Shown here: positions 10,701 through 59,730 of the stretch, piece after piece
Numbering within the stretch: position 1 is the first letter of the stretch
How the letters are laid out: each line of letters opens with the position of its first letter
Origin: Antedon bifida
Taxonomy: Eukaryota; Echinodermata; Crinoidea; Comatulida; Antedonidae
Direction of reading: 5' to 3'
Length of the DNA stretch: 64,000 nucleotides
Assembly: GCA_963402885.1 (NCBI GenBank)
Contig: OY727096.1
Location: 20,007,820 to 20,071,819 of the forward strand
Made by a program: the position numbers and the translations under genes
Notes under the pieces: generated by a model
Seen by the model: only the letters and a program-made list of their open reading frames with translations
Told to the model about the DNA's origin: nothing
The model's database searches: none

Positions 10701-13700
10701 GCACCATCTCACAAACTGTTAGATTTAAGTGTCGGTTATGTTCGACCATAAAATAGTGCATAAGGCGATTATGAGACGCTGTCTCCCTCACTAGATGCAA
10801 GTAGATTTCATCGTTTTTCTAAAACTGGATACTGTAAACAATGTAATTTGTCAAATAATGAACGCCAGTTGTTTCAATCGAATCAAATGGTTGTTGTTTA
10901 ATCGGGTATATCTTTAAAAAATAAATTTTACTTTTTTTAATGTTTAACATTTAAAGTCTGCATTTTTTTTCTGTGTAGAATGAAATGTTTGTTGATGGTG
11001 TACTGTTTGTACTTTCATTGAACATTCAATTACCAATAGCAAAAATAATATGTTTTTTTAGTATTTCAATTAATAAATAATAATATGTAGATATACATTC
11101 TTCAATTTCAAAATATTTGTATTTAAGTAAATTGTTTATAAAGGCCTGTGTATATAGATTTTAAATAAATATTAGTACTGATAGTTTATGCAAAATTAGA
11201 TAGTATAATACTGTATTTTCATGTATTTTAGATTACCATACTCTTCTACAACAGTATAATATGCTGATATATTTGGCTGTTGGCAAACATGTGTAGTTGT
11301 TATTATGTTAATCAGCCATAGATCGTGTCCTTGATAGGTTGGAGGTCACTCAAGTAATACTGCATTCAGTAGATAGAGAGAAGTGATCTTCAATCTCATC
11401 AGAAGCACGGGGTCGTTATAAAATGCTTCATAAGAAGTCAGCTTTAGAATTTTCATAGATGTGTTATCAAACCTAATCATCACGCTGGGACCCTAGAGAG
11501 TTCTTTCCCATTAATTGTAGTCAAATGTCTGCTGTGCAACTCATTAGCTTGGGCCTAGCAAAGTGGGTAGATAATCTGTATTGAAACGGGCATGGTTTTT
11601 AAAGCTGAATCCAATAAGTTGTTTGTACAGTATTATTGACAAAAATTCCTATATTGCCAGTTGTTTTACATAACAATATAACAATTTGTTTGTTTTAATA
11701 TCAAATAAACGAAGAAAAGGTTTTTGATTGGTCGGTTACATGTTATATACAGTATAGATCATTATCATATGAATAGTGACAATATTCTAGTACATATTAA
11801 TTATTTTGATTACTCTATTTTAGTTTAAATTTCATAATTAATAATTTTATAGAATATTTAGTTTTACAACCTAAAATACGAGAACAATTATTTTTGAATC
11901 AGAATTATACATTTAATGGTTTTATTGCTGCTGTTCTTTGTTATTTAAATTTTATTGTCACAATTATTAGTAACTTTGTAAATTTTCAGTCATCATTCAT
12001 CAAACAGTATTGTCGGTATTTGAAATGTGTTTATTACAGCTTTATATTATTCTGATTTGCATGGGAGATTCCACTTACAGTACCAGCAAAAACAGACGAG
12101 AGTCGCTCATGCGTATAATGACTTCTGTTAAACACAGAGACAAAGACTAGAGAAGTAAAAATTCAGACAAATATCTAATAACACTGAAAATTCTACACAC
12201 GAGTCGTCAAATCTGTCGCCTATATGCACTCTAAAATCAGCGTTTGTCTGTGCAGTATAAACGCTGTAAGTTGTCCTGAAAGGTAGAAGCTATTATCTAA
12301 CCTAACATTTGCCGAAGAAACATCTTATTATATTCTGTCATAACTCGCATTACATACATTCTCCTAAAAGGATTTATACAGGCTTTTTCGGTAAGATGAC
12401 GATTTAATCCGTGCGGGATGTAATCACCTAGGTCTTGAATGTGTAACGCTTTTTACGAATCAAACTACCGTCAGCAAGATCGGACTGTTTCAACGTGTTG
12501 TGTCAGTTGTTCAAATTTCAGTAGTGTCTTGGGAGTTTTAATGGTGTCATTTCCGCAATTTTGCATTAATATCTGCGCGTATGGCCTCAAACCAACACTT
12601 GGAAAATGAAACTTGGTTTTGTGCTTACAGGCTGTTTTTCCTCAATATACTAGTATATTTATATATAATCTAATAGTATTATTTCTTTGTTTTTTTCTTC
12701 AGCATCCTATGCAGATGGCCGGACAGCCTCAGCTGGCTGCAGCCTACCAAGCACAGGCATTCCCACCACAGAATGGCTTAGAGGCCTACCAACAACCTCA
12801 AGTGCAAACACCGTATGTACCTACATCTGTAGCCCAGGCACAGACAGATCAGGCAACGAGTTACACACAGCCACCTCCAACACAAGATGGAGTAACAGTA
12901 GCAGGCTTCCCTCCTGGCACGGCCGCAGATGGCACTACTTTTGTACAAACACAGCCTACCGGCACCGAACAAACAACACAACCAGGATTATCAATACCAA
13001 TCACGGTAAGTTGAAATAGGCCTAGATATAAAGTATCATACGTTTCATAATTTATGTTATTAATGATCATATATATGTTATTAAATTATGAAAGCCTGTG
13101 ATAGCATTTAGTGCAACATAGTTACAGTATCTGCTCTCTTGTTTAGTGTTTTTTCTGACTGACTTAACTGTGTAAGTTAAATAATTAACTATTGACTAGT
13201 TATTGATTGATTAATTCTTTTTATTATAAATATTTAGCAGAAGAATTCGGCTTTGATTCTAGGTTAGGTTGGCTTTTTCTCATTTTCACAGATTTTCCTT
13301 TACTTTATTTCTAGTAAACTATATGTATCACTCTTTTTTATAGTCCTTTCATTTTCACTCATATATGGCTGTGCACTTATTTTCATATTCCAGAGTTATA
13401 TGTTCAAGTCAACTTGTTAAACTTTAACCTCAATTCTCTGAATTCATCATCATTCATCAATTTATATGCATCTGTTAGAAAATTATAATTAATTACATAA
13501 AAATGAAAATTTGTCAATTATTTATAAACATTGTCATTTCATATGAGGATACTGATGACACTATTTTTACTAATTTGTATTTTTGATTTATTTCTTATTT
13601 TTGTAATCCTTTCTTGCATCAATTATCTTGTTACAATCAAGAAATGTTTATTTTTAACCTACTTCCTTGCAGATTTTTTAATATGACTCATATGTATCAT

Positions 13701-16700
13701 GTCACATGCTACACTCAATAATGAATCTATATAATTAAAACAATTGCTATCAGTAAGCTCTGGCTTTCTTGTTTGTACTCAAATGATGCTCTTCAACAAA
13801 ATCCATACTTTTCACATTTCTGTGAAGCATTTTACTGTAATTCAATCTTTTTAGTGTAAATATTCTACCAATTTATTATTATGTTATTATTATTAGATTA
13901 CTCTGTATTGCGTAAATGAAGGTCATGTCATTTGACCTTTCTTGTAAGCATTGGTAGTAGGTTGGAGTGTAACAGATTGTCAGGCCCTTTTTAATTTATA
14001 CAAGCATATGTTGCAGTATAATTTATTAAAAGTAAATGTTTTTTTTCCACTATGACCATTAGGCATTTTGCCTCTGATGTCTGGCTAAAGGTTTAGTGCT
14101 TGTTGTGCAGACATGAAGCTTCCAGTTATGATTAAAAACGATTTATTATGCAAGGCTTAGATTCTCTGCATTCTTAAAACCAAATAAACATGGTCTTCTA
14201 GTGTTGACTTACTTAATTTGGTATAGTGTCTTTAGATAGAATATAATCTTCATCAATAGTATGTATAGATATACAGTATAGTACTGTAGATAAGTTAGGT
14301 CTAGAAATGTGTGAATAGGCAGATGCATGCACAGTAGTTGTCCAGGTTGGATAATGGTTGGAGCATGTCTTAAGTTTGTTGTATACTGTAGTACTCTAAT
14401 CTATAGCACACTTTTCCTTTCTCCTGAAGTATCTTCATAACCTACAGTATGCCTACTATAAGTCTGTTCTTTGTAGGTAGATCCTGGCAATTCTTTTATA
14501 GTTACATTTTACATAATAAAGTATGTCACTTTTCTTCTTACAAACTCTATTCTTTTCCCACATTTCCTCTACAATTCTCATCAAAAAGGAATTAACGAAA
14601 GGTGTTATCTTACTCTTGCTTAGCAAATCCATTTGAAGATAATGTCATACTTATCATGCATAAGAAAAAACGCATACAACTATACGTAATGGCCTCATTT
14701 TTCGCGTAATAATTATATCGAAGGTGTAGACTTGCTAGTCTGTTTGATGTAGTGTAACATTACATTGTAGTTGACTAATGTTTCCAATAATGAGGAATGA
14801 TGAAGAATGTACTATCATCGCAAATTTACAATAGAAAATATAACAATAATCATATTCCCTAAAGACTGTAGTGTGTGTACGATGTGTTATAGCTGGCGTT
14901 ACTCTGTAGCAAATCATTATTTAGCAATTTTGCGAAGTCCTACTTTTTAATGACTTGTATGGAATTAAGAAAAATTACTATGTGATGCATATTGGCAATG
15001 ATATTGGATGACATGCAATCATAAATCTTATTTTTGAATCATAATTTAAAAATTCCCTCAAGAAGATTACTGTATGTCAGTAAGTTTGTGAAAAATTGTC
15101 GTAAGAAAGATATATTCATCATTTTCCACACTTTTCATTGCCATAAACGACATCATCATCATCATCATCGTCGTCATCACACATCTTTCAATTTATTATG
15201 CATCATGTCATAATCTTCATCATCATCATCATAATTATTTCTACAGTATCATTATAATCATATCAGAATCCACTTTTGATTTCTATCCTTTGAATCTAGC
15301 AGTTAAGGTTTACCTGAAAATATACTTACTGCAACTGATTACTGCAGCAACTGTAGTGTAGATTATCGTGTAATATACTATGCAATCCTTCTAAACGTTC
15401 AATAAAAAATATGTCACATTTCTTGATAATTACCGATTTGTGTTCTAGCTATAAAATTTAACTTCTTAGCTTTGCAATGCAATATTTAATTTGTCATTCT
15501 TTATCTCTCAATTATCTAATAAAAATTGTTTCTTGTTTTTAATTTTAAAGCAATACATTTAGTTTGACATAAAATACATTTAATTCAAATCCATTTGATT
15601 ACTTTAACCATTTATGAAAAGTTTGTGTTTTAAAGCAATTTTCAAGAATTGAGTTATGTCGCAAATGTTGCTGCATTTGTAGCTTTCTTGGTTTACATAC
15701 TGTAACTGTAAATTGTGGTTTGTAAATGTTTGTTATATGTTCTTTTACAGAATAGCGATGGTAGTGTATCAACGTCACAAGCGCCCTTAGCCACGGAAGC
15801 AGGGCAAGCAACACAAACTATTCCCGGAACGAAACCGGGAGAAATACCTAAACGTTTACATGTATCGAATATCCCATTCAGATTCCGAGATCCAGATTTA
15901 CGACAAATGTTTGGGGTGAGTACCGTGCTAGTCATGAATTAACATGGATCTAGTATAAGTATTCTTGTTATCTAGTTTAGCAGCATTTTCTATTTCCGAT
16001 GCAAATCCCACTATTACAGTGATTGGCAGAGGTGAGATAACTTCAAAAGTTTATTGAAATTCCATTCACCAAGCTTAATTTTCTAAGTAACTGTTTATGT
16101 TGTTATTTATCATATTTTTTAGGTATTTGGTGCCATATTAGATGTAGAAATTATCTTCAACGAACGAGGCTCAAAGGTAGGCTCTTTTCTCCAGCCTGGA
16201 TTGTGCATTATCAGTGCATTTTGATTCTAAAGCATGCGTCTGCAATGAGCATGATGCATGTGTTTGAATTCAAACCTGCCAATCAATGATCTTTAAATCT
16301 CCCATTGGTTAGCATCTTGCAGCAGGATTACTAGATGACCAATCAAATCCAAGCATGAATTTATTTTATGCAAATTTTATTTTTATTTATTTCCCCCACC
16401 CCACCCCACCCTTAAACTTTTCAGTTACTTTTTTGTTGAAAATGAAAGGGTTGACGTATTAAGGCTTATTAAAATTAATTTATTTTAAACTTTGAAATCA
16501 ACTATAAGACATTTAATTTTTTAAATAAAACAAACAAATTAATATAAAGTTATTGATAAATAAACACAAAATCTTAATATCAGAAAATGCTGAAAATTTT
16601 AAATAAACTAACTGTGTCTAGTTGACTGTCTAGATCACAATCTAGTATATAATGATGCTAAATTTATGTTTAAAAATTCATAAATTTATGTTAATTTATA

Positions 16701-19700
16701 ATTATGAAATTGATTTCAAATTCTGTTTTGATCATGTCTGGTCATCATAATAGCTACTAAAATAATATTCAGATCTATTTGAATTAGTTATAAATTAATT
16801 GTCAGACAGATATTATAATTACTTGCAGGTTTTTGAATTTTACAAAATATTAGCATATTATATTGCAACAAAAATTAAACCATTAGATTTTAAATTGATC
16901 ATCAGAATTCTTATTATAGCCTCACAGATAACATTTTGAGGAATATGTGTTGTGTCCCAAACCTGTAGTTAAAACATTAATGGTGTAATTACCTTTTTTG
17001 TTTTGAGAGGCTGCCACCAATATTCAATTCATAAAGGGCAATAAGTCTTGAATATTATATTTGGAAACAAATTTTTTTTTAAAATTAATCTTTATTTCCC
17101 TCAAAATAAAATCTTGTAAAGGTTTACAATTCAAATGAATAAAATATGTACAAATAACTGAACCAATCAGAGCCAATCAACCCTTTCATTTAATTTGCAT
17201 ATATGGTAATGAGCATGACTTGTGTGCCCCATTGAGTAGTATTTCTATTTTAAGTTACACATAAAATAAAACTAATGAATCAAATTTGAAAAACAAATTG
17301 GCAAATGGCCATTCCTCTTTAATATCATGACAATTAGTAAGTTACTACAGGTGTAAGGTAATACCTGTATACCACATGTTTCGGAAACCTTTACAGTAAC
17401 TGCAAGTATGTACTACTGTATGTTACAGTCAGTTACTTTAAGGTGAAACAACATGTGTCTGATCCAAGATCTGGGCACTCAAGATTCCTGCAGTAACTGC
17501 AGTATTATAACTACTCAGCAAAATTATATTCATGGCTTATACAAATGAAAGCGCAATAATTGAACTGTTGGCATTTGATGTTCTATTGCCTGATAATGAT
17601 TGTCCTCACGGAGACATAAAACTGCCTATTTATTACACCTCGCACTCATTTTTAGTGCATAGGTTCAATAATATAGAGGATTGCCCTTTGACCTCCTGGT
17701 TGGAGGAATTGCTCAAAATTATTTGATCAAACTTCCAAATTAATCAAAATTCATTTTATAAAATGTGTAACTTGAAAAATAGAAATCTTTTCTTAGAATG
17801 TCGATGCGAACAATGCATTAAGCAAGTTTGACAGAAATGACGTATAGATTACATTTTGTAACATCTCAATTTTCCACAATAAAATATTTTATGAATTCCA
17901 AAAAAAATTAGCACATTTAAATTCACAAACTGTGTATGTTGTGTGTGTTTGCACAGTGTGTTTATCATGAGAGAAAAAAAATAATACTAAAATTATAATT
18001 ACTTTGATTAAGCAATAAATTTTAATAATCAAATAATAAAACTTATTTAGTCATCAATGAATACAATAATCAAGAGTTAGGATGGGTTAAAGATCCTGCC
18101 AGTACAGTACTCCATATTACATTAAACATTGAAATTAGATTATTAGATTAGATTTGATTAAAATAATAGTTATATATAAATTTTACACAATAAATGCAAA
18201 GGCATATTACTGAAAAAAATGACAATGCTATGAATATCAGTGGCTGGATCTCAAGGGAGATACTAATAAAATAATCAGAACGGTTTGATAAAACAGCCAG
18301 AAAGAAGCCATTTTATACAACAATAAAATAATGAATAAATTTATATAATGTGTGGTAATAAATAACAATAGTATCTTCAATACATTTTAAACAACCATTA
18401 ACACATTAGGACATAGTACAAAATGGACTTAAATTGTGTAACACCGCATCAATCCTAAAGCCACAGAATATATCAAACATATGTGTATGCCTACTGTACT
18501 ATTCAGTTGGGTAACCCTACAAAATGTATTTAGGTTGTAGCTGTACAAAGATGTTTGTTATAGGCTACGGATTCACTGTGTGTCATGCAATTGTTAAGTC
18601 CATAAATACAGTAGGTAATTTCATACAAACACCGAGTGTGCATGTGTTATTTGTTGTGATACTGTTATGTCATTTTTCCTATGTTTTACAATGAATCGTT
18701 GCATTTTGTTTCTATTGAATGTTTTTTTTTCGGCACGTATTTTTCGAATTTTTAAAAATTCATACTTAAGTTCCTAGTAATCTTGCTGCCTGTGATATTT
18801 CTATTGTCATTATTTGTGTTATGTTTTGCTATGCTTGAATTTACCAAATAAATTGTGTTCTATTTGTGTTTTAGATCATACCATCTTTATAAATCATTGG
18901 TGAAGGCTGTAGACTATATAGATATATAGATACAAGTTTATTAAGAAAACGTGCGACCATAAATTCCTCTTGCCTCTCCCACCAGCAAAATGTAGTCTTC
19001 ATATACGGCAATCATTAAAAACAGTCTTTAAATTTTAAACATTGAAAGAAAATGGCATTCAAATTTGGTCTTAAAAAACCAGATGCCAATTATTTTATTC
19101 CCGAGAATTTTTTTTTTTTATGACAAGTTTAAAAAATCTACAAAGTACATATATATTTCATAATGTCAATAATTGGTTACGAATCTACAAATTAGATCTT
19201 TCGGAAGATTTTATTTTTCATAGAAATATCTTAAAAAGACGTTTGTATGAATGATAAATGATTTCTTTACTTGGATTTATCATGAGCAGTAAAAAGCTTT
19301 CTTTTCGTTGATCTAGAAAATTTTGACTCTTTCGCTAACGGTAATTGCTCTGAAAATGTTAGACATATGGTGTTTTATTTTAAATCATAAATTTGTTATG
19401 GTAATTCAAAAGATGGCTAATGCATATTGCACATTTACGTAAGTTTAATGGTACTGGCCATGTGTTTGCATCCCTATTATAAAAATGGTATGATCTAACA
19501 GCAATAGGATTTTTTGACAAACAATGACCATATGCTGTTCTCTAAAAGACATTGTCTGACCTTTTTAATATCAAAGGATCAGATATATTCTCTATCATGC
19601 TGCATAACGTATATGAAATTATGATTTTGATAATGACTTTGATTATACTGTACCTAACTACCATGTTTTTTCCTCAATGAATTTATACTGTACACAAATG

Positions 19701-22700
19701 CTTTATAATTTTATAGTGCTCATCTAAATGAATTTTAAAAATATTGAAAAAAAAGCACCAAATATAGATTATATGTTTTTTTCAATATAGTAAAATCTCT
19801 ATGTTTTAAATGTTGCCAATTCAGGCAAGCTTTTCATATAAATGTTATGAACTAAATATATGTTATTTCTAATGATACAAAATTACTGGTAATATTTGTT
19901 ATAGATTGTGATATAAATGTGCTTATTTTTTATAGATTCATTTTGATCTGCACTATATGTTAACGGAAACACAAATATTTATATATATATATTTATAAAC
20001 CCTGAGAAAGCATGATTGGCCAGAAATATCTCCCAAAATAATTTGGATGATCCAATCATGACAATGAACTTTGACACACAATTTCAATCCCTGTTTCCTG
20101 TACCCATAATGCAACATGACTTGGTTTGTTTTTCATGAGTGTAGTGATCTTTAGTACCGTGCTATGTTGAGAATAATTTTGTTTAAAGTTTATTTTCTGA
20201 CCATGATTGATCAACGTCGACAGAATGGACAGAACCACGACTGAGAATTATTGTCGTGAGACTACTTTCAAATTTATGGCTTTCCAAAACAACAAATTGA
20301 AAACAAAAAAGCACGTTCTCAAACCAATTGCATTACGCACCGATCATATGATTAACTTGTGTTTTCTACTATGCATGGTTTATTATAATGTTCTGCATGT
20401 GTATTATTTATTTTCCGATGCATGCAGGGATTCGGTTTTGTAACCTTCCAAAATAGTTCGGACGCCGAGAGGGCAAGAGAGAAATTGAACGGGACGATAG
20501 TTGAGGGGCGAAAGATTGAGGTGCATGTCATTCGTAAGATTTCTTCTTTAATGTGACCTATGCTTCTTCTCTACTTCTTTTCTACTATATCTTTCTGTTT
20601 TACTCTCTAGTACGGTGTGTTAACTGGTTCGTGTGATTTATTTCAGACCACGCATGTTTTTTAGTTACGTGATGAGTGTGAAGTATATACCACTAACCAG
20701 TACACACTCTTATATGCCACTTTACTAGGCCTGCTCGCAGAAATATTTTTTGTTATTACCCGTGAACGATCCCACACGATTAACCTATCATACTTAAAAT
20801 TTTATCCCGTTTTTTCTGGGTGTCATGAATTTATTTAAATTTTTTATGCAAATTTGTTGGCATGAACGCTACATAGATGAATGCGCATTTTTTGACATTT
20901 TGTAGTTTGTTTTAGTTAATTAAGACAAAATTTTCATTCATTTTATTTGATTTATATTTCGTTTGAAATGGCGCTTACGTGATGAAATTAACCGGTCATG
21001 TGCAACATAAATCAAAATGATAATCCCACATTTGAAGATTACCACTACGCAGAGCCAGGCCTAGTGGGTGTACAACTTTTCAAATCTCTGACTTCCATTA
21101 TCGAGACCTTCTACGGCTCGTTTATACATCTATATATTTATTTATGTTTTACCAGAAGAACATTTAAAGAGGGATAAGCAATTCAAAGTGCTTTGGGTTA
21201 AGACGTTGTCTGCTATTATTCTGCTGATTTTTTAACTGGTCAGGGTTGGGTAAGTTCTTATCGCTTAGAACAAAGCTATGTGCTCTAAAACAAACGTGAA
21301 AAAAAACAAAAACAAATTACGCCATCCATGAAGATCAGAGATTAAAACCGACCGGTCAAAGTATTCACAGTTTTTTATTTTATTTTTGTAGCAGTTTCTT
21401 AGTTTTTACTACTTAACGTGTTGTTTTAGAGATGTTTGCCGCCATCGTGTGCTATTATTAGTGCCCTCTATAGTTTATCCTGGAATGTGTTTTTGCTCCG
21501 GTCTTGAATTTGATGAATTAGCCGGTGTTTTTTGGTAACCACTACAACTCGCTGCACATACCTGGTTTATGTCCTCTGCATCGTGCATGCGATTTTTTTC
21601 CACTCTTGTTTTGTGCGAGCATCTGTTTGTCTCTATGAAACAAAAAAAAAACAATAGTCTAATAACAATACAGTATTAAGAATTGAATTGATCTTGAAAA
21701 TTTTTCCGCTATAAAGAAATTGGCTGCCATCAGGCTCAAGACAAACTATCAGGAATAACTGAATGGTAAGTTGGATTATTCCTAATACCCCACATCAGGA
21801 ATGGTATCTCCCAATGATGCAGAAATTATCCCAAATAGGCCAACCTGTATTCCCAGATCAAAATTATATTACACTAAGATGCAGGTTATTATTTTTTAGT
21901 GGAAAATATTAAACCTGAATACCAAAATTAAATTTCATGCTGGAATTATAACCAAAATTAATATTTTCCCTGACATGTTCAAACTGAAGATTAATTAAAT
22001 GAAACTGAATAGTATAATATTTAATCATCTTTTCAAAAATGATGTTTGACATTAACATATTATTAAGTAATTTATCTTGCTTGACCTGAAAATTTACCCA
22101 CAACTCTACATGTCTGAATTAAAAACAAAATAGAGGGCGCTATGTACTGGTAGGTTTTTAGAATGTTAGGAGTCAGTCCACATTCTTTCTATATCAGACG
22201 GTTACGGAACAGGTAGGAGTGATATATATTCTGTCTATATATACATTATAAGTTTCTTTTTCATCTTCTCTATTTTCAATGTTTCTATTATCGTAAATTT
22301 TTCTAGGATTTCTTCCTTTTCCTAAAGTGTAGGTCAAGCAACAATGTCAATAAATACATCAAAATATCTCTGAAAACAAACAACAATTATGTTCCAGAAA
22401 AATATTGTTATGGTCGAAAAATTATATCTGTTTGAATGTATAATAATTAGAAAATACTTTAAAAATACTTGGCAAAAATGATATTATAGAATTTATATTA
22501 AAAAAAAGTTATACCAATTTCTATTAATAGTGATTACCACAATTGATAATTAACTTTGCTTGTCAACTTTTCGATTAATTTTAAAGCATATGTTTTCGAG
22601 ATATTTTGATGTAAATAAAATGCTTTATTTGTATGTTTTTTATTATATGAAACAGTCTTGCCTTGGTTAACAAACGCTAGGACCGGCTATATGAATTTTA

Positions 22701-25700
22701 TTATATAATTTAAAATATTCATAAAAAAGAAAAAGTAAACAATTCTCTACAAAGTTAATTTGAGTACACCTAGACACTAGATGAAATTTTCATCAGATTT
22801 AGTGTACAGTATATGTACAGTATTCAGTACTGTAGGTCCGTTCTACCTATTTCTCATGTCTTAAAGGTTTAATTTAAAATTACTTAATTACTTCAAATTA
22901 CATAATTATTAAGGATATTAAAAGATAATATTGGATAAATTAAACATTATGGCCTTATAATCTTAAACTACATCATTAGTTATCTGGATAACAACTTTCT
23001 TCTGAACATAATTGAGCATACACATCCAAACTTTTTGCAACATCATGTAGATTATCTACTTAAATTCTGTAGACATTATTTTGATGTCAACTGCACTATT
23101 TTCTATAATAAATTCCAATAATCTTTTAAATAAAATCAGTTAATTATTAATATGTAATAATAACTTTTGAGACATAAAAATTATAACAGAAACAAATCTA
23201 CAAGTGGTACCTATGGCAAGACTGTTTAAAACTATTATGTGAAATTCTTTATGTTGAATGTTTGTACTGTATTTGTATATGTCACTGAATATAAATTAAT
23301 ATTTATAACTTCAATGTAAATATTATAAAATGTGTTAAAACTCATTGTTAACTTCCTCTAAATTAAAATTATGATATCATTTATATAAATCACAGGCACA
23401 GAATAAATTCTAAACCGCCCGGTGATGAAATTTGATTAATTAATTTGAATCGATAAAGATGATGAAATCTGTGAGAATTAGAAAAAAGTAAAAAATAATA
23501 CAAATTTATGCTATTAATGAAATTTGGAAGAAAATTATGTTTACATTTTAATATAAAAATATAAGAATTAGAAAGTAAGGTGTTTGTTATAATAATGATA
23601 TTTAGTATAAAAAAGTATCTATCTATTTGATGTATCAAATTGTTTGATATGAAGCTAATAAAATTAAACATATTTTGGATTCAGCAGAAAATATATAATT
23701 AATTATAACAGTAATATAGATTCATTAAATATAGTATGAAACAAAATGCTTATATCCATTAACAAATTCGATAAATAGTTTTAAAAAGGAGAAAACCAAA
23801 TTAACTACCTTCTGGAAAAATTAAATTGACTTGATTAAAAAATTGTGATTCATCTGTATAAAAAATGTCCTGTAAATGTTTTCATCTAATGTCCTCTTTC
23901 TACATGTTGCGTCTTGTTTTGTGTCAACTTTCATGGATTACATTTTACATTTGTCTTGACTCTTTACCTTTGTGTTTTTGACAGGTAAATAATGCTACAG
24001 CACGAGTAATGACGAATAAAAATAAACCAACTCCCAACGGCGAGTCTCTTGCTGGTAGGTGAAATAAACAATTTTTTAAATTCTAAAACTATCAGAAAAA
24101 AAGTTGTACTCTCTACAATAGAAACGACTCCATTGGAACACCCTATTTATGGGTACATTTTCCTGTGAAAGAAACGAGGGGAAAAATATGTTCTAAGCAT
24201 TACGGCCTACTTCCTGAAGTGTCCTTTTAATAGGGGTTCTACTACATTTTGTTATGCTGTACAGTTGTTTTTATTTTAATCTCTTAAAATAAAAAGTTTT
24301 TTTTAAATGTCCATTTAATATTATCCATTATTATTTTTTGTTTTATGTAAATGTTTTATGATGTATTAACTTTGGTAACTATGTAAGCTATATCTATAAT
24401 AGGTGTACTAAGAGCTCCAGTAATCGCTGCAGGCAGAGGTCGTGCAATCAGAGGTGCTTACACCGCATACCGATTAGCACCCCCACCACCAGTACCAGGT
24501 TACGCAACAGCTGCAATCTATCCAGAAACCTTTTATACAGCAGCGGCAGCAGATAGATACCAGGTATGTAACAGACACTACAGTCCTGTTTGGTTCAGAA
24601 TCCATTTACCACTACCCCTAATTATTTCTGGTTATTCCAAACAAACTGTTATCAAGAAATGTATTTATTTCAATGACAATGGTTGGATTGACTGTATAAA
24701 ATAGTGAAGTTGTGGAGCTGTAGCATGGTGGTTAACAACAATCCGTGACTAGTAGTAGTACCAGGATTGTTTCTACTTCACTGAAATGAGACTTAAGCTC
24801 TGTCTACACTATCAAACTAGTTTGCCAAAAAAAGTGTGATGTGCCCAAATATGGTAGTGATATTCCTAAATATGGTAGTGATATTCCTAAATATGGTAGT
24901 GATATGACATCATCATGTCCATATATGGACACATCACATTTTGTTGTTACATAAAGTTTGATAAGCATGATAAAATGTATCATGTATTCATCCAGTGAAA
25001 AACTTACTCCTGGTAATTGTGGTACACCTAAGAGAAAGAAATAGCAATTATTATACCCCACAAAAAGTGTTAACTATAAATAATTATATGAAAGACATTT
25101 GTATGCTGCATGTTCTACAGTATCTTCTATCTACTATCTATAAACTAACATCCCACTTGCAACACAACTTGACTATATTGCATAGGCCTACAGTTGAATA
25201 TGAATGAATATGGAAACGTGTCAATATGTGTAAATTATTACATTCATTTTATCCTTTTCCTTGTAATAGTATTGTAATTCCTATATATGACAATTTATAA
25301 ATCTTTTAACTAATACTGCGTGGAATGATATAAAGAATTTGAAGTGAAATTCCTTAAAATAAAACTTGTTTCTTCATAAATCTTCTGCCTGTGTTTGTGA
25401 ATGTTGTACAAATATTGTAATGACGTAATTTAACCAAATATGTTTGAATGATAAATGAATTGCTGTAGCATTATTTTAATGAATTTGTACACAAATTAAA
25501 TTAATATACAATATATCCTGTAAATTCTTCAGTAAAGTCTTCAATACAATGTATTTTCATAAATTATAATTTATTTAAACCATGGCGAACTAGTTTATAA
25601 TTTCCCCATGTTTAAACAAATTAACAATGAATGCATGATACAGTGTAGGAATGTTTTTTTTTTATTTAAACCTTAGAAAAAAACGGTTTGAAAGATAGCA

Positions 25701-28542
25701 TGAATATTGAACACTATACTATGTAACATTTTACTAACTTCATGAGACCAAATTACATCCATATCCTTGCACAAAAGTAGTTCTACTGTATACTCTGAAA
25801 TTGTATTCTTAATTCTGTATGCTGATTGGACTTATCTCTTCATGGCTTGCTTCCATTTGTGTAAACGAGGAATGCTCTAATGAGATATGTTTGATGGCAA
25901 GTGTATAGGGCTACTGCTATTTCCAAAGTTTGAAATATGAAATTGAATGGATTTTTAACACAGTTCAGTTATTTGTTTCTTATGATTTCATTGGCTATAT
26001 TTTAAATTATTGTTTTTCAAAATTTGTATTTCAAATCCATTTTCTTTGTTTTCATATTATATTGTTCATTATTTTCACCCACATAAGAAATAACTGAATT
26101 AAACATAACAGTTTAATTTATTCTTTATTTCACCTCACCTGATTCCTAATTATTTATACACATAATAATTATGTTTTAATATTAATAATAATAATAATAA
26201 TAATATAAATAAAGGTTAGTATATGCTTGTTTGCCTGCTGTAATAGTTTGCTGTGTTTGCTTAACTAACAAACAATTTTTTCCATCTCTTTATTTTCTTC
26301 CTTTATGCTACAAAGACGGAACTTCTTTTACAGAGCGCTGCAGCAGCCACAGCATATGGAGGCTACATAAGTCGATACGCAGCACCGGCAGCAGCCTACG
26401 CAATTCCATATGCCAGGGAATATGCGGATCCGTATCATCACACGATCGGCCCAGCGGCCGCAGCGTACGGGGTAAGATACCCCTCTATTGCACGGGTAAA
26501 TCCAAAGGGGCAATTATGTCTCCATATTCACTGGAGTGATATAGTCTGTAGCCCTTGTCCTTTGTGGTGGATTTTGCCTTGCATTTTTCTGAACGTTTTA
26601 AATAAAAATCACTTTTAGCATTCTGCTTGGAAATGTTTGTGTTCTTTGAATTTGTTTTGATATATCCATATTTACCATTAAAAATACCATATATGGTTAA
26701 AGAATTTAAACAAATGAAAATGGTATTTCACCATTTGTAAATAATTGGCAAGAAATTCCTATAAATGGTCATGATTTTAATAGATTCAAGCATTTTCAAA
26801 GAAGTGAAGCTAAAGTGAATAAGATATTGATAATGAAGACATTTAGAAATATAAACTTCCAAATTTTACAATCTTTAAAAAAAAAATGATTGATACCAAG
26901 TCCTGTCACATTGCACTTCCAAATTGCTGTCTCAGACTTTGTGTCGAGCATCTTATAACAGACAATAGTAATATGAGGTCAAACATTTAATCAAACATAA
27001 AATTACATTCCGATTATCAATATCTTTTATTAGACATTTTGATATGTATATGTATTTCTTTTTGATTTATTTATATGAATGATGTTATTACTTACTAGTA
27101 TTTATTTTGGCCTGATTAGAAATAGTGATTGTTGTTTTTTGTATTAGTGTTTGATTATTAGATGTTGTTCAACCTTTATTGTATGTTTTCATTTTACAAT
27201 ATTCATGTTACATTAGTAAACTGTAGCATTATTACTATCACACATCAGAGCACTATCATTCAATACCAACTGAAATAGTTATAGCCAACCCTAAATTTAT
27301 AAGCCAACCAAATTAAAAATCATACTCATTTATTGTATCCATGTACTATACTAGTAAGGAAAGATACCTTCGGGGCGATTACTTCATGTATGGATGCGTG
27401 CAATAGCAAACATTTGCATTACAGACAAAATGTACAATCTCTCTCTCTGTTATACAGTAGTATAGATATCAACATCTTACATGACTCAATAAAATTCCTG
27501 CCTGAAGTTCGAAGTTCAAACAGTCACTGACATATCAATGACCTTAATAAAAGTTTAGACAAGATTTGTAGAAAGCCATTAGAATTGTTATGCATGATTG
27601 CATACATCTGCGTTAATGTCCGTTCCATAATTAACATATCATAAATGCATTTGCCAAACAAGTACTGTAAAATGTCTAATGGTATCATTTGAGGAAACAA
27701 ATACTTGTCATTGAAAAAATTAAAATAAAAGTATTTTATTGATGGATTTTAATTCATTGCAGTTTTTATAATGCTTTCGTTTATAAATTAAACAACCAAT
27801 TTACCATGTAAATCCATGTACAGGAATTTTAAAAATATTTCTGAAGATAATAATAATTCATTAATGAAAGGTACAAAAAATATTAAAATAACAATACTAA
27901 CAATATTCAGAAAATAACAAAATATATATCTAAACATTACTACTACATCATGGCAAAAGGAAAAAAGGGCAAGGAAAGCCTATACTGCAGCTAGTCCCTA
28001 GTTTGAAAAGGTTAGAAAAAAAGGATTTCCTTAAACACCACCGCCTCCCCCCATACATCCATGATCTTATAGTACATCACATATGATGTCTTACATTTAT
28101 TACATGCATTAATTACATATACAATAATTACATACATGTAATATTCAGAAGTAATAGAAAGCTCCTTTTTTGTACTGATTGCTAACTCTTTGGTTTTTTT
28201 TCCTTCAAATTATTTCATGCACCTTTTTCTAAAATGTTTGATGTGTATAATCTCTTTGTCTAATCTATTTTGAACCTTTCTAATAAGTTGTATTTAACTT
28301 AATTTTCTTTAGAAGTAAATTTATCTTACTGTTTCATTACATTTGGCCTTAAGAAGAAAACGTTTGACACAAAATAATGTTCACTAGACCAACCATGTTG
28401 AAATGAAAGTAACATACCATGCAACCCTAATGGTATCATCAACTTTCTTCCATTTCCATGAAAAATATTACTAATTATTATGTATTTCTTATTTTAGGCT
28501 AGTGTATACAGAGGAGGCTATGCGAGGTATACTCCCTATTAA
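7549..28542 (+). CDS. RBFOX: RBFOX (Fox-1 family) RNA-binding splicing regulator, 9 coding exons modelled
   Basis: RBFOX proteins bind (U)GCAUG in pre-mRNA in the nucleus and promote or repress exon inclusion by position. The model joins exons 7549-7743, 12703-13005, 15751-15915, 16123-16176, 20428-20520, 23985-24054, 24403-24563, 26334-26471 and 28498-28542, all in phase, giving 407 residues. Residues 1-200 are rich in Gln, Ser, Thr and Pro. The RRM spans about 200-278: RNP2 is LHVSNI at 202-207 and RNP1 is KGFGFVTF at 239-246, followed by VNNATARV. The C-terminal part has RG repeats (GRGRAIRG), APPPPVPGY and Ala/Tyr-rich stretches, and ends [11 protein letters not shown] like vertebrate paralogues. 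RRM exon sizes (54 and 93 nt) equal those in vertebrates. Oddity: the residue after the FG that ends exon 3 is Val where vertebrates have Gln. Family assignment is near certain; the first exon is less so. Confidence 0.95.
7744..12702 (+). other. RBFOX intron, about 5 kb
   Basis: AT-rich intron. It contains one TGCATG (9885-9890). A less AT-rich, CpG-containing block at about 12060-12610, just before the next exon, may be a conserved regulatory segment or internal promoter. No gene is seen. Confidence 0.6.
12703..13005 (+). CDS. RBFOX: RBFOX coding exon 2 (Gln/Pro/Thr-rich)
   Basis: Strong acceptor (ttttttcttcag) and donor (acg then gtaagt), phase 0 on both sides, 101 residues. The QAFPPQNG stretch resembles the APPQNG / PPPQNG motif of vertebrate RBFOX N-termini. 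It is followed by a low-complexity Gln/Thr/Pro tract ending LSIPIT. Confidence 0.9.
13006..15750 (+). other. RBFOX intron
   Basis: AT-rich. It holds a TGCATG at 14324-14329 and a CAT/CGT microsatellite at about 15149-15240. Otherwise I see nothing definite. Confidence 0.6.
15149..15240 (+). repeat. CAT-rich microsatellite
   Basis: Runs of cat and cgt triplets, interrupted, within an RBFOX intron. Confidence 0.7.
15751..15915 (+). CDS. RBFOX: RBFOX coding exon 3 (start of RRM)
   Basis: 165 nt, phase 0 on both sides. It encodes a Ser/Thr/Gln-rich linker, then [18 protein letters not shown] and RQMFG. This is the invariant start of the RBFOX RRM, including RNP2 and the Phe residues that contact GCAUG. 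The donor is ggg then gtgagt. Confidence 0.97.
16123..16176 (+). CDS. RBFOX: RBFOX coding exon 4 (54 nt, RRM)
   Basis: Encodes 18 residues, [18 protein letters not shown]. Exon length and position match the 54-nt vertebrate exon; vertebrates read QFGKILDVE at the start. The acceptor is ttttttag and the donor is aag then gtaggc. Confidence 0.96.
16232..16357 (+). promoter_or_regulatory. GCATG cluster downstream of RBFOX 54-nt exon
   Basis: GCATG at 16232-16236 and 16249-16253, TGCATG at 16255-16260, and GCATG at 16353-16357. RBFOX proteins bound just downstream of an exon usually enhance its inclusion, so this may be a self-regulatory enhancer. That function is inferred from position only. 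Confidence 0.45.
18196..18310 (+). repeat. Dispersed repeat family R3, copy 2
   Basis: Aligns by eye with the 5056 and 39881 copies: aaaggcatattactgaaa, gacaatgctatgaatatcag and aacagccagaaagaagcc. Confidence 0.55.
20372..20424 (+). promoter_or_regulatory. Three TGCATG RBFOX sites at the 3' splice site of the 93-nt exon
   Basis: TGCATG at 20372-20377, 20394-20399 and 20419-20424. The last lies directly against the CAG of the acceptor. Upstream RBFOX binding normally represses the following exon. Vertebrate Rbfox genes are known to repress the equivalent 93-nt exon this way and make an RRM-defective protein. Confidence 0.75.
20428..20520 (+). CDS. RBFOX: RBFOX coding exon 5 (93 nt, RRM core, likely autoregulated)
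   Basis: Encodes 31 residues beginning [20 protein letters not shown] and ending GRKIE, which includes RNP1. Length and boundaries equal the vertebrate 93-nt exon. The donor is unusual: gag then gtgcatg, which departs from consensus and itself contains the RBFOX site. Skipping keeps the reading frame but removes part of the RRM, so the short form could not bind RNA normally. Confidence 0.97.
20521..23984 (+). other. RBFOX intron, 5' part compositionally distinct
   Basis: The first 1.1 kb (to about 21640) is richer in CpG and GC than the rest. It holds further Fox motifs (TGCATG 20522-20527 overlapping the donor, GCATG 20652-20656, TGCATG 21584-21589). The remainder is very AT-rich with nothing recognisable. 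Confidence 0.6.
20522..20527 (+). promoter_or_regulatory. TGCATG overlapping the 5' splice site of the 93-nt exon
   Basis: The motif occupies intron positions +2 to +7. U1 snRNP and RBFOX would compete for the same bases, which gives a direct feedback switch. A further GCATG lies at 20652-20656. Confidence 0.7.
23985..24054 (+). CDS. RBFOX: RBFOX coding exon 6 (end of RRM)
   Basis: Acceptor gacag, 70 nt, ending in phase 1 at a gtaggt donor. It encodes [15 protein letters not shown] and TPNGESLA. The [12 protein letters not shown] segment is invariant in the family. Confidence 0.95.
24055..24402 (+). other. RBFOX intron carrying a MITE-like remnant
   Basis: Contains an element at about 24121-24250 with cattggaacacc..., cctgtgaaagaaacgagggg and tgtccttttaataggggttctactac parts, related to the 55571 element. 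Confidence 0.6.
24121..24250 (+). mobile_element. MITE-like repeat family R2, copy in RBFOX intron
   Basis: Shares tcctgtgaaagaaacgaggg, the ccct...aat(a)ggg core and a right end ataggggttctactac with the elements at 48017 and 55571. The ends are loosely inverted. No coding capacity. Confidence 0.55.
24403..24563 (+). CDS. RBFOX: RBFOX coding exon 7 (RG / Pro-rich)
   Basis: Starts in phase 1, completing a Gly codon, and ends in phase 0 at a gtatgt donor. It encodes an [17 protein letters not shown] region then [15 protein letters not shown], comparable to the vertebrate RGRGRTVYN...APPPPIPAY segment. The acceptor has a weak pyrimidine tract. Confidence 0.92.
24794..24966 (+). mobile_element. 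MITE family R1, copy A (right end damaged)
   Basis: The left terminus taagctctgtctacactatc is intact. Inside, an aaatatggtagtgatat unit is repeated three times, followed by gacatcatcatgtccatata. The right terminus stops at ataaagtttgata and lacks the expected gtgtagacag block, so the element is clipped. Confidence 0.75.
26180..26208 (+). repeat. AAT microsatellite
   Basis: Uninterrupted run of aat triplets in an RBFOX intron. Confidence 0.8.
26334..26471 (+). CDS. RBFOX: RBFOX coding exon 8 (Ala/Tyr-rich)
   Basis: 46 residues, phase 0 on both sides, with [16 protein letters not shown] and YADPYHH motifs like vertebrate RYAQPTPATAAAYSD...YAADPYHHALAP. The main donor follows tacggg at 26472. 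A second donor 24 nt further on (cgg then gtaaat at 26496) would add VRYPSIAR in frame. Confidence 0.94.
26472..28497 (+). other. RBFOX last intron
   Basis: AT-rich. A TGCATG is at 27591-27596. No exon-like segment is recognised, although vertebrates have optional exons in the equivalent region. Confidence 0.55.
28498..28542 (+). CDS. RBFOX: RBFOX terminal coding exon
   Basis: Acceptor tattttag, then [14 protein letters not shown] and a TAA stop at 28540-28542. The ending matches the conserved YRGGYxRFAPY tail, which acts as part of a PY-type nuclear import signal in the family. Confidence 0.96.
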   Translation, partial: ASVYRGGYARYTPY

Positions 28543-33591: not shown

Positions 33592-34791
33592 GTGAGTATT
33601 TGATTAGGAATTTGACAAATAAACTAGGCCTAGCCTCTAGGCTAGATACTACTAAACTAGCTAGTAGCCTAGGCCTCACCTGCTGCCTAGAGAGTAGCTA
33701 GGCTAGACTAGGCCTAGGCCAACAAGTGTCTTTCAGCATTCGGAGCCTGACTCTGTATATAAGGACTAGGTTAGGCCTAGCTAGACTTGACCAGGCGGTA
33801 ATTCGCCCAGGCTAGTGTAGTACATGGGCTAGAACTTGAGTAGTACTGTGACTCTGAGGTGTTCTGTAAGTGTTTCCTGCTTGTTTTTGATCCTAGCAGT
33901 ACAAGAAAGAAGAAGAAAAGTGTATGTTGACCATAATATTAATTTAATATGTTTTGTTTTCTTTTACATAGGCGATATGAAGTTTGGCTTAACTAAGCAG
34001 TGTCAGACAATATATGGCAGAAGCCCCATATGCATGCCACCGAGCCTGTGTCCAGAGTGGAAGATCACCTTAACATTTATCATCATTGGAATAGCATGTC
34101 TCACAATGACATGTTTCTTTTTACTGTATTCACTAAAGAAAGTTGCGATGTTAAAGGTTGCCAGGTGGACTGCATTTGTTGGAAGTGAGTGAGCCGTTAA
34201 TTCACTTTACTCTCATCAATATTTTATCTACTGGCTACTTCATACATGTCAAGTTTGAGGTTGCTGCTGGCTTGAGATTTTGCTCCTATTTGTTCCCCAC
34301 CCCCAGTTCTAACCTTGTTTCGATTGGTGCAAAAGCGTGAAATTTTAGGTGCGCGTCGTGGAAGCTTGAGGTTGGGTCAAAAGCTGTGAACCTCACACCG
34401 GACTTGACATGTTTGCTACTTATGTTTGGGATAGGGTTAATTGTATTACTGTTTTAGTGTAATGCAATTCACTCCTTCCAAACCACTTCACTCAATAAAT
34501 TACAATAAAAATGTTAAGTCTTTACAAATAAAATCACATAAAAAAATCACAACAAAAATAATAACACACAGTATATATTCTTTTTTTTTTCATCCAGTGG
34601 TTGTCTTCTGCATAGCTGCATTGATATTTCCAACAGGATTCTATGTGGAAGAAATTGGTGGTGAACCATATAAACTACCAGACAGTGTATCCATCGGAAC
34701 GTCATATATCATGTTCATAATGTCAATATTTTTGACAATTGTTTCACTACTTTTTGCCGGCAAGATCTGTCTTCCTATGCTCTATGTGTGA
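33489..34791 (+). CDS. MOSMO: MOSMO, modulator of Smoothened, four-pass membrane protein
   Basis: MOSMO works with MEGF8 and MGRN1 to ubiquitinate and lower Smoothened at the cell surface and cilium, damping Hedgehog signalling in vertebrates. Exons 33489-33591, 33972-34184 and 34598-34791 join in phase 1 at both junctions, giving 169 residues (human about 167). Matches along the length include MDKLVIISAILFIVADVFAL, GLTKQCQTIYGR, PPSLCPEW, ARWTAFVGM, ALIFPTGFYVEEIGGEPYKL and LLFAGKICLP. Four hydrophobic segments lie near residues 5-25, 70-92, 107-125 and 140-162, and the TM1-TM2 loop carries conserved Cys. It differs from human mainly in the loop lengths and a short MLYV tail. The identity is firm and the gene looks intact. 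Confidence 0.95.
33592..33971 (+). other. MOSMO intron 1 with AGGCCTAG-rich patch
   Basis: From about 33625 to 33800 the palindromes ctaggcctag / taggccta and related ctagctag words recur many times in a locally GC-richer patch. They do not form a regular tandem array. Confidence 0.6.
33972..34184 (+). CDS. MOSMO: MOSMO exon 2
   Basis: Encodes the conserved loop (QCQTIYGR...PEW) and the second transmembrane segment, up to the start of the third. Phase 1 on both sides, donor gtgagt. Confidence 0.95.
34185..34597 (+). other. MOSMO intron 2
   Basis: About 410 nt ending in a long pyrimidine tract (t-run then catccag). No other feature seen. Confidence 0.8.
34598..34791 (+). CDS. MOSMO: MOSMO exon 3
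   Basis: Encodes the third and fourth transmembrane segments with FPTGFYVEEIGGEPYKLPDS between them. It ends CLPMLYV and TGA at 34789-34791. Confidence 0.95.
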
Positions 34792-45300: not shown

Positions 45301-48300
45301 GGAGGGGTGTAAGCTGAGAGGAAGGGTGTAAACTGAGAGGAGGGGTGTAAGCTGAGAGGATGTGGCCAGGGTGTGCTTCCCCTTTTGACAGTTGAAATGA
45401 AATGATGAATTCATATTTAATTAAATATTAATTTTTTTTTCACTAATAATATTAAATGTTAATGCTCCCTTGTTTAAAATAACCTGGATTTGCACCTGAA
45501 GGCAATCTCAAGTTTAACACTTTTAAGGTCATGCACCACCCAGGAGTGCAAATTGCTACCATTTTAAAATAGAGTAGTAAAAAAGTATATGCCAAATTAC
45601 TTTAAACATATAATTGTAATATGTGTTCCTTATATTCCAATGCATTTGATAAAACTACACAAATTGTAATTTTTTAGAAAACTAAAAATACCTGTTATAA
45701 CAATTGTCGAACAAACCAAGCTTTTTTTTTATCAGTGGTAATGCCCTCAGTGAAAAATGAACATTGGAAATTACCGAATCGGAAAATAAATAATGGATTA
45801 ATGGAAGGTCTTACAAATTACTATGTTCCCAAATTAACTGAAGTAGATCATTTTTACTAGCAAGGGAAGAATCTGGTGTACATATGACAATAATACTGAT
45901 AAATGAATGCCATAAATAAATTGTAGATTATTAGTAATATCTGTAAATTGTCAGAAACAGCCCATGTATTATTGATATTAGAATGACTTGGGAGGGGAAA
46001 GAAAAACAGTACAATAATTAATATTGTATTAATAATCGTACTCATGTGTAGTTTTTATGCACCGATATCCATCAATACACAGATGTGTATGGCACAGTAG
46101 TAAGCCCTTTAAGGCAGGCCTGCAAATTAACCTTTTATTATAGTTGGCTGACAGGATAATTTGTTATATATAATAAGTGAAAAGTTCAGGCTGCTTATGT
46201 GGAATGAATAGATATATAGATAGAAACGTTACTGATTACCAGGTATTTTGGTCATTTTCTAGCCTTGCTACAGGCTTGTGGCAGATAATAACAAACCCTA
46301 AGACAATGTCCTCCACTTTGTTAGGTACTACAGTACTTTCTTACTGTATTACAGTACTCCTATATTGGTGTTCAATATCCGAATGTACGACGACAATGAG
46401 TTATTACTTCATTCAGACATTAACCTAACAATGATATCCTGCAGTACATATATATTTAGAGAGTTACTTACCCACTATTACTGTGTTGTGAGAGCATGTG
46501 TTTTGTCCATCATCTTCTGATTTGACTCCGTAACTATTATATATATCACTATCATTCTTTCTTCTATGTACATGTACAGAATATGCAAACTTTCTTGTTA
46601 AGTTAAAAAAACAACGTAGTATTTGGTAATAGTAACAATACGTCCTGCTTGCTTGCGAGAGCGAGATAAAGAAAAAAGGTTTTCTAAGAATGCTAAACGT
46701 AACACCTGCTAATTGATATGCAAATAGTACAATTGCCTCTACACATATACCAATCCTCTCGTACCAGCAGTGAACAATGGGAACACATCTAAAACATATA
46801 TTATTCTGTTATGCATTACATACACAGTGCCATCACAGTTGTATTTGGTGCCGTGCTCTTGTGTCCATAGAACCAATGTTTTTACATCCCATCCGAAGGA
46901 TGAAACACTAAGAACGTAGTAAGCACACAAACAGATCTTGAACTCGTAGGAGTTCTTTAATGTAATGTAGGATGCTTTGGTGATTGATTCTCCAAGACCC
47001 GAAGGCTTTTCTTATTCTACATTCAAATATATTAGTTTTCTTATAATAAGAGTCAAATGACCCTCATTGATAAATGTTCTTTTTCAGTTGTGTATGTTGA
47101 AACAATAACATGTGTATTTTGTCAAAATGTAATGATTGTGTTTACATATTGGATAATTAAAAAGAAACTGTTGATTCTATAGTAGAATATAATATATTTC
47201 ATTTCTTTTTATTTCTCTTTACTAATAACTTAAATATAGTGGAGAAGCCTAAATGAAATTATACAGTAGCTTGTAAAATGAATAGGCTCCAGTATCCTAC
47301 AATTTGTTATTATTATTTTATTAATGCATTTTCCATAAAAACCAATAGTTCCCTATTGTCACATGACATAACAGTGCCGTGCCACCAGTACGTTTGTAAA
47401 GTTTCAACCTGACCTCCTCCTCCCTGTGACTTTTTTACGACCACCGTGTCACTTTAATATCGTGGCTACGGCACTGCTTGATTGCATTGCACTACACAAT
47501 TCTATTCAGTTTTTTTTTATGAATATCCTTTACCAACCAGCTCCACTATCTAAACCTCATAACAGTACTTAGTTTAGAGAAAGCACACGTTTTGATCTCA
47601 TCCTTTCATAAATTAAATGAAATGAAATGGCTGAAATACAAAAAAAAAGTATTTAAATTGGAGACTGATGAGGAAAGGGAATATAATTATGATTGGTAGC
47701 TACTATCCTGTCTTTGTTGACGATAGGTAAAATTGGGTTAAACTAGATTAAAGTCACTCGGGATACTTTAAAATGTGAGATAATCAAAAAATATATCCTT
47801 ACTTAAATATCAGAGGCATTAAATAACCTTGCTAACCAATTATCTCGCGTATCCAATGTTCTAAGTTAACCTTTGCCAGGCTAAATTTATGGATCGTTTT
47901 GATCTTTTCTACAGCATGTGTCTGCAAATGCAAAGCTGGATGGGTAGTTAAGTTTCTGGACAATCATACTGACTTCACCAAACTGAATAATCAAAATATT
48001 ATTATTATTATCTGACAGCCCTGTTCAGAGGACACCCCTATTAAGGGGACTCTTTCCTGTGAAATGAACAAAGGGAAATAAATATATACTACTTCTAAAT
48101 TCCAAAGGTGTCCCACTGGTGTCGGGCTGCTGTTCTCAAGGTGTACCACTGGTGTCGGGCTGCTGTACTTTTATGGTGTCCCCCTGGTGTCGGGCTGCTG
48201 TCCTCAAGGTGTCCCACTGGTGTCGGGCTGCTGTACTTTTATGGTGTCCCACTGGTGTCGGGCTGCTGTCCTCAAGGTGTCCCACTGGTGTCAGGCTGCT

Positions 48301-58461: not shown

Positions 58462-58688
58462 ACGGTGATAATAATAAGCAGCATCACATTTGTGTAACTC
58501 GGCTGCTACTGCAGACGATCGTAATATAAACAGCCGTTCAGCTGAGCAACTTACTATTTGTTTTAGAATCGACCGGTAATTGTCAACCATGAATGGTTTT
58601 CTGCACAGATAAGCGTTAACGACTTGGAAAAAGTGTAATTCTCCCGTCGCATTTGTGATTTTTACTGTTGCACTTTTTAGCAGCTAAG

Positions 58689-58974
58689 ATGAGCTCACCT
58701 TCATCGCCCGATGATTCTCCATCGCGGGACAGCGATTTTGAAGTCCCGCCGGATAACTGTTTCCGTTTAGTTGTTCTCGGATCGCCAAAAGTCGGGAAAA
58801 CGGCGATAGTCAATCGATTTTTGACCGGACGTTTCGAAGACCAGTACACTCCTACGATTGAAGATTTCCATCGAAAGATCTATAAAATAAAGGGTCAAGT
58901 TTATCGACTGGACATTTTGGACACGTCAGGCAATAACCCCTTTCCAGCTATGTGCAAACTGTCCATCCTTACAG
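58689..58974 (+). CDS. RASD: RASD1/RASD2-type (Dexras1/Rhes) Ras-family GTPase, exon 1, partial
   Basis: RASD proteins are membrane-attached small GTPases that modulate G-protein and adenylyl cyclase signalling. In mammals they are induced by glucocorticoid (RASD1) or enriched in striatum (RASD2). The 95 residues have a Ser/Asp-rich N-terminus, then the P-loop GSPKVGKT (31-38), switch I RFEDQYTPTIEDFHRK (about 48-63) and the family-specific DTSGNNPFPAM in place of DTAGQ (78-88). The exon ends LSILT plus one base at a gtaggt donor; the mammalian genes split at the same LSILTG. The NKxD and SAK motifs, the long C-terminal extension and the CaaX box must lie in an exon beyond the right edge. No second exon is found to the end of the window. 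ATG 58689 is the first ATG in frame. Confidence 0.93.
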
Positions 58975-59730
58975 GTAGGTACAATCATCAATGTACTCTT
59001 ATGTTATGTATGTTAACGGTACTTTTGTGTTCAGTGCAGGAATACAGTAGTTAGGCATAATGTAAACACCTTTTCTAATAACTTACGAAAAGTATAGTGT
59101 TATACAGTGTACCTAAATAATTATTATGATAACCATTCATACAGCGCCCTCGAACATGATGAACTAGTTTTTTTTAACGAACATGTACAGCACTGAAGTC
59201 TCTTTCAGTTTGGAGATACGATTTTGAGACAAATCGTACGTACGCCTACAGCCTTATACAATTCTTATGGGGAAAGGGTTGTTAAAACGAGGTCATTGCG
59301 CTATATAAATGTAATGAGTTGATTACTACACTAATTTGCTCACAATCATTCGTTTGTGATGCAATTGTCATGTCTGTAAAATACTCACATTATTAGTCAG
59401 CAATTGCATGATAATAAACTTCGATCACATTATGCTGACTGCTTGACATTGGTATTAACATGGTGGTAATGCAGATTTCTCAACTTGTACTTGGTATGAT
59501 ATTAATTTGGTTTTGCTTTCATTATTTCTCTCAAATGAAAGATTAACGAAGATTTAATTTGTTGGAGGAGATTGGGATTTTGTCTGTTCTTTACTGTGTA
59601 TTATTCGGACCTACTGTATATTACGTACCGACATTCATACAGACTACTTGATACTTGGTACTTTTCCAAGAACATCTTCCATCTTTATCGCACGTACACC
59701 GACATTGCACTTTAGGCAATATATCTTATA

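Follow-up and report, generated by a model that had tools for sequence, protein, structure and literature searches.

The RBFOX gene of Antedon bifida carries TGCATG, the word bound by its own product, at the acceptor as well as the donor of the 93-nt exon that encodes the second half of its RRM. We consider it likely that this exon, designated exon D, is a cassette exon repressed by RBFOX in its own pre-mRNA, with the in-frame skipped product acting as negative feedback. The mechanism itself is not new, since the vertebrate layout is in print, skipping has been shown in mammals and an equivalent alternative exon has been reported in Drosophila. What is new is that this arrangement occurs in an RBFOX gene which is single-copy and does not belong to a vertebrate, which means either a pre-vertebrate origin or convergence.

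A single-copy RBFOX gene

The window, that is, the whole stretch of 64 kb analysed here, contains the greater part of an RBFOX gene on its plus strand; eight of the gene's coding exons (A to H) are readable. Positions are those of the window.

12703..13005, plus strand: exon A, N-terminal low-complexity part of RBFOX, read from splice signals and an open frame
15751..15915, plus strand: exon B, encoding the beginning of the RRM
16123..16176, plus strand: exon C, 54 nt
20428..20520, plus strand: exon D, 93 nt, encoding RNP1 within the second RRM half; predicted to be a cassette exon under self-repression
23985..24054, plus strand: exon E, predicted partner of exon C upon skipping of exon D
24403..24563, plus strand: exon F, weak Fox-1_C match under the Pfam cut-off
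26334..26471, plus strand: exon G
28498..28542, plus strand: exon H, last coding exon, with the stop at its end

Spliced in silico, exons A to H give a single open frame that runs through to the stop in exon H. It contains one Fox-type RRM, whose best matches in the PDB are the RRMs of RBFOX1 and RBFOX2 (RBM9), with E values of 6.5e-49 to 4e-46. Across the first 83 residues of this domain, RBFOX1 and RBFOX2 do not differ; the window protein shares 76 of these 83 and deviates from both at the same seven positions, five of which are held by exon D. The gene is thus indeed RBFOX and the 93-nt exon indeed an RRM exon, as the original prediction had it. The frame of exon F scored 19.3 bits against PF12414 (Fox-1_C), for which the cut-off is 25.

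When the whole genome (315.6 Mb in 27 contigs) was searched with the RRM at E <= 1e-8, two matches were returned, both of them exons of the RBFOX gene in the window. RBFOX is single-copy in Antedon bifida, with no paralogue found at this threshold. One further candidate on contig C8, a 93-nt RRM match covering much the same part of the profile, was rejected; it is not an RBFOX exon, and its 2.1 kb contain no TGCATG at all. The RBFOX query found only one bacterial RRM locus, at 27% identity, in a collection of other genome contigs, and nothing among viral contigs. Neither Rfam at the gathering threshold nor ARAGORN gave any match in the window.

RBFOX words over both splice sites of exon D

Around exon D, the following words were found.

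20372..20377, plus strand: TGCATG copy 1, upstream of exon D
20394..20399, plus strand: TGCATG copy 2, 29-34 nt ahead of exon D, where branch points usually lie
20419..20424, plus strand: TGCATG copy 3, contiguous with the CAG acceptor (20425-20427)
20522..20527, plus strand: TGCATG copy 4, within the donor of exon D (GAG/GTGCATG)
20652..20656, plus strand: GCATG, downstream of exon D

At the acceptor the sequence is ...GATGCATGCAG/GGA, and at the other edge the first T of copy 4 is the T of the donor GT itself. It had been claimed from the sequence that three TGCATG precede the exon with the third touching the CAG acceptor, that a fourth lies over the donor, and that a GCATG follows at 20652; all of these words are present at those places. 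Because they are intronic without exception, coding constraint cannot explain them. They are also denser around exon D than around any other of the eight coding exons read: exon D has three TGCATG in the upstream 100 nt and one at the donor, and only exon C otherwise has a TGCATG within 100 nt, a single one 79 nt downstream, which is a member of a separate cluster.

16232..16357, plus strand: GCATG cluster, four copies in 126 nt, at the 5' start of intron C-D behind exon C

The intron between exons C and D has this GCATG cluster at one end and the TGCATG cluster preceding exon D at the other.

Skipping of exon D had been expected to leave the reading frame intact, and the predicted join of exon C to exon E (16176 to 23985) is in frame. 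The donor of exon D is the weakest of the seven donors by two measures. First, its score is 0.32 versus 3.77-6.26 for the six others in a weighted scoring of donor sites. Second, its continuous pairing with U1 is the shortest of the seven, at 5 bases versus 6-9 with wobble allowed.

A model for self-repression of exon D

From this layout, combined with what is known from mammals, we infer that RBFOX occupies the words at exon D, that exon D is skipped in an RBFOX-dependent manner through competition with U1, and that the skipped product acts as a dominant negative. When RBFOX is high, it would occupy TGCATG on the branch-point/acceptor side (copies 2 and 3) as well as at the donor (copy 4), and this occupancy would block U2AF/SF1 and U1, respectively. 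With both edges of exon D masked, exon C would be spliced to exon E with the frame kept, giving a product that is without RNP1, without GFGFVTF and the next helix, and without the remainder of the second RRM half, but that retains both flanking domains. Such a product should dampen RBFOX activity, so that activity would fall as RBFOX rises.

In mammals, Dredge and Jensen (PMC3126832) report that Rbfox3 drives skipping of Rbfox2 exon 6, and a review (PMC11380049) places RNP1 in exon 6 and describes the protein made without this exon as dominant-negative. In rat, forms lacking the 93 nt were cloned and were more abundant in cortex, and sites were found near the 93-nt exon (PMC5577181). Later papers cite Damianov and Black 2010 as the original account of the autoregulation. 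The claim that vertebrate Rbfox proteins repress this same 93-nt exon is thus borne out by the skipping reported in PMC3126832 and by the layout given in PMC1877881.

The GCATG cluster behind exon C may contribute as well. Since RBFOX sites downstream of an exon usually favour inclusion (PMC11380049), this cluster could, speculatively, aid the exon C donor or else loop the intron. The same rule renders the sites at 20522 and 20652 ambiguous by position alone, as both lie downstream of exon D, and this counts against the model.

Descent, convergence and other explanations

The shared layout suggests that the self-limiting switch is very old. We lean towards the view that the words at exon D are homologous to the tetrapod ones and go back to the deuterostome ancestor or earlier, that dominant-negative self-repression was ancestral, operating in a single gene before the paralogues arose, and that the cluster behind exon C forms its second half by aiding C-E joining. 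The original prediction that the loop is older than vertebrates stands in so far as the single gene fits it, as does an RRM whose 7 deviating residues among 83 are the same against RBFOX1 as against RBFOX2; it falls short in that convergence and loss in a lineage are both compatible with the same facts. Its age argument is also not wholly new, given that an equivalent alternative exon had already been stated for Drosophila (PMC3126832).

A second possibility is that the function is the same and its origin independent, RBFOX genes having repeatedly gained their own words at this in-frame, essential exon. According to Yeo et al. 2007 (PMC1877881), the FOX1 exon layout is conserved to Xenopus and absent in Tetraodon; this reported absence is in keeping with convergence, and it also constitutes evidence against self-repression of exon D, for the layout must then be dispensable. 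Six-base words moreover arise easily, as the 21 plus-strand copies of TGCATG in the window illustrate. However, convergence would have to place the same two words on the same two edges of a homologous exon, with the donor word weakening the donor, and we therefore regard an independent origin as doubtful.

Another outcome would be a shift of the donor in place of skipping. RBFOX bound to the normal donor could push U1 13 nt down to a second, cryptic site, with a frame shift, a stop and NMD instead of a dominant-negative protein.

20534..20539, plus strand: weak cryptic donor TTC/GTAAGA, 13 nt downstream of the exon D donor; predicted

The computed consequence is real, in that predicted use of this site would add 13 nt and shift the frame, with a stop after 6 residues, and its pairing with U1 extends over 5 uninterrupted bases, the same length as for the normal donor. 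Mammalian Rbfox2 also has NMD isoforms near this exon under raised Rbfox3, but these arise from separate cryptic exons rather than from a shifted donor (both points from PMC3126832). The cryptic donor scores below the normal one (-1.05 vs 0.32), its use is conjecture, and we consider this outcome improbable.

Third, the words might be without function in Antedon bifida and owe their position to chance. The count of TGCATG in the window is ordinary, with 37 copies on both strands versus 45.7 expected and thus no enrichment. Their spacing is less so: neither three plus-strand starts within 50 nt nor four plus-strand copies within 153 nt occurred in any of 60 simulated 64-kb windows (order-3 Markov), and the same was true of four GCATG within 125 nt, which served as the control for the cluster behind exon C. 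In a harder control, from which the minisatellite at 48 kb was excluded, 19 of 874 hexamers of similar abundance, TGCATG among them, reached four starts in 151 nt within the window; 14 of these lie in TRF tandem arrays (score >= 100), and the five outside form three separate clusters, that at exon D included. Clustering of a hexamer is by itself uncommon, not unique in the window.

Genome-wide (315.6 Mb), the two-ended pattern TGCATGCAG-N{80,110}-GTGCATG occurs at nine places, which equals the count of the reversed control pattern and would accord with chance. Yet of the eight places other than RBFOX, four fall in one repeat array on contig C1, three have stops in every frame and one has a single open frame; and among the eight of nine places for which upstream words were counted (a place on contig C16 was left out), RBFOX alone has three TGCATG in the upstream 60 nt. 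A wider pattern, in which two words precede the exon and one lies at the donor, was uninformative as a test: it has 196 places in the genome, compared with 82 for the reversed control, and among the matches listed, roughly the first half of them, most are tandem arrays by eye. Given that the two-ended pattern is as frequent as its reversed control and that hexamer clusters exist elsewhere, the strength of the finding is the placement of the words on both edges of the binder's own RRM exon rather than their number. Chance does not explain why the RRM exon of the very gene whose product binds these words should have them at acceptor and donor alike. Pure chance is unlikely given the match to the vertebrate layout (PMC1877881), and we rate the absence of any function as very improbable.

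Finally, it is scarcely credible that RNA structure rather than protein is responsible, with copies 2 and 3 forming a 12-bp hairpin that conceals the acceptor, for although 51 nt yield a fold of -12.4 kcal/mol (z -1.90, with 7 of 200 shuffles folding as well), this support fades in longer context (z -0.25 at 71 nt and +1.09 at 201 nt) and TGCATG pairs with itself by nature.

Self-repression of exon D by RBFOX thus remains our preferred reading. Should the words be homologous to those of tetrapods, three consequences would follow. A six-base word that weakens a donor would have been kept in noncoding sequence for more than 500 million years; an animal with a single-copy RBFOX would provide a clean test system for self-limitation, free of cross-talk between paralogues; and a feedback loop described mainly in mammals would be dated.

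Other features of the window and genome

Downstream of RBFOX, Pfam assigns two frames at 33833-34788 to Atthog (Attenuator of Hedgehog, PF18800), with 78 and 93 bits. A Ras-like GTPase frame lies at 58659-59051 (Pfam Ras, 61 bits; closest solved structure Di-Ras1); it resembles a RASD (Dexras) protein, and as human RASD2 lies near RBFOX2, this may reflect an old linkage. Large minisatellite arrays occupy 48105-49037 (periods of 24-33 bases among those reported), 50408-51058 and 59749-60886 (period 23 for the latter two), the first of them having long open frames on both strands. Outside the tandem arrays found by TRF, a cluster of TAGGCCTAG-type palindromic words is present at 33625-33780, with five GCCTAG and five TAGGCC starts, each set within 151 nt. 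Elsewhere in the genome, the repeat array at contig C1:412895-413230 consists of units with several TGCATG each and forms a dense block of RBFOX-type words. Of the 27 contigs, eleven (C1 and C7-C16) reach chromosome size judging by hit coordinates, and the other sixteen span 5 to 283 kb. On the mitochondrial contig, COX1 is unreadable in the vertebrate code, which leaves four stops. Four of its five AAA codons align with Asn of the best-matching solved COX1 (7o37_a, from mouse), in favour of AAA as Asn, a reading used by echinoderms and flatworms. Pfam scores rank ATA as Ile above ATA as Met and leave Asn and Lys for AAA unseparated (491.2 bits with table 9 versus 492.0, 491.9, 488.0 and 483.8 with tables 4, 24, 13 and 5). 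The COX1 locus (4,341 bases) has 72% AT, and two feather-star mitochondrial genomes have 72.73% and 67.84% AT. An echinoderm is thus the likely source, with a crinoid as the best guess.

Comparison with known systems

The closest parallel is provided by tetrapod FOX1 and FOX2. Yeo et al. 2007 (PMC1877881) describe TGCATG at the acceptor and at the donor of FOX1 exon 10, which is 93 nt long, and likewise for FOX2; in Antedon bifida, too, the exon is 93 nt long, in frame, encodes RNP1 with the second RRM half, and is overlapped by TGCATG at both its 3' and its 5' splice site. The original prediction was right on the sequence and on its likely meaning but silent on this published double overlap. 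Unlike human FOX1, for which the same paper gives five conserved TGCATG in 400-nt flanks, exon D has four TGCATG and six GCATG in all. In contrast to vertebrates, there is one RBFOX gene here and no paralogue was found, so that any regulation of exon D by RBFOX would be auto-regulation.

Outside vertebrates, our survey of the open-licence literature, which covered titles, the starts of abstracts and passages, found no description of these words among the entries listed. The Drosophila Fox homologue is stated in PMC3126832 to have an equivalent exon that is alternative; the likeness is one of exons, the statement giving no motif positions. In C. elegans, several GCAUG/GCACG sites in intron VI of xol-1 drive dose-dependent unproductive splicing by FOX-1, which resembles the present case, but the target is another gene and the response is intron retention or use of an alternative acceptor instead of skipping of its own RRM exon (PMC7787662). 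RBFOX, through exon D in its predicted role, would finally join SR proteins and PTB as an example of a splicing factor that limits itself through its own pre-mRNA, with the difference that their messages are sent to decay, whereas the form predicted to lack exon D would remain in frame (PMC6884704).
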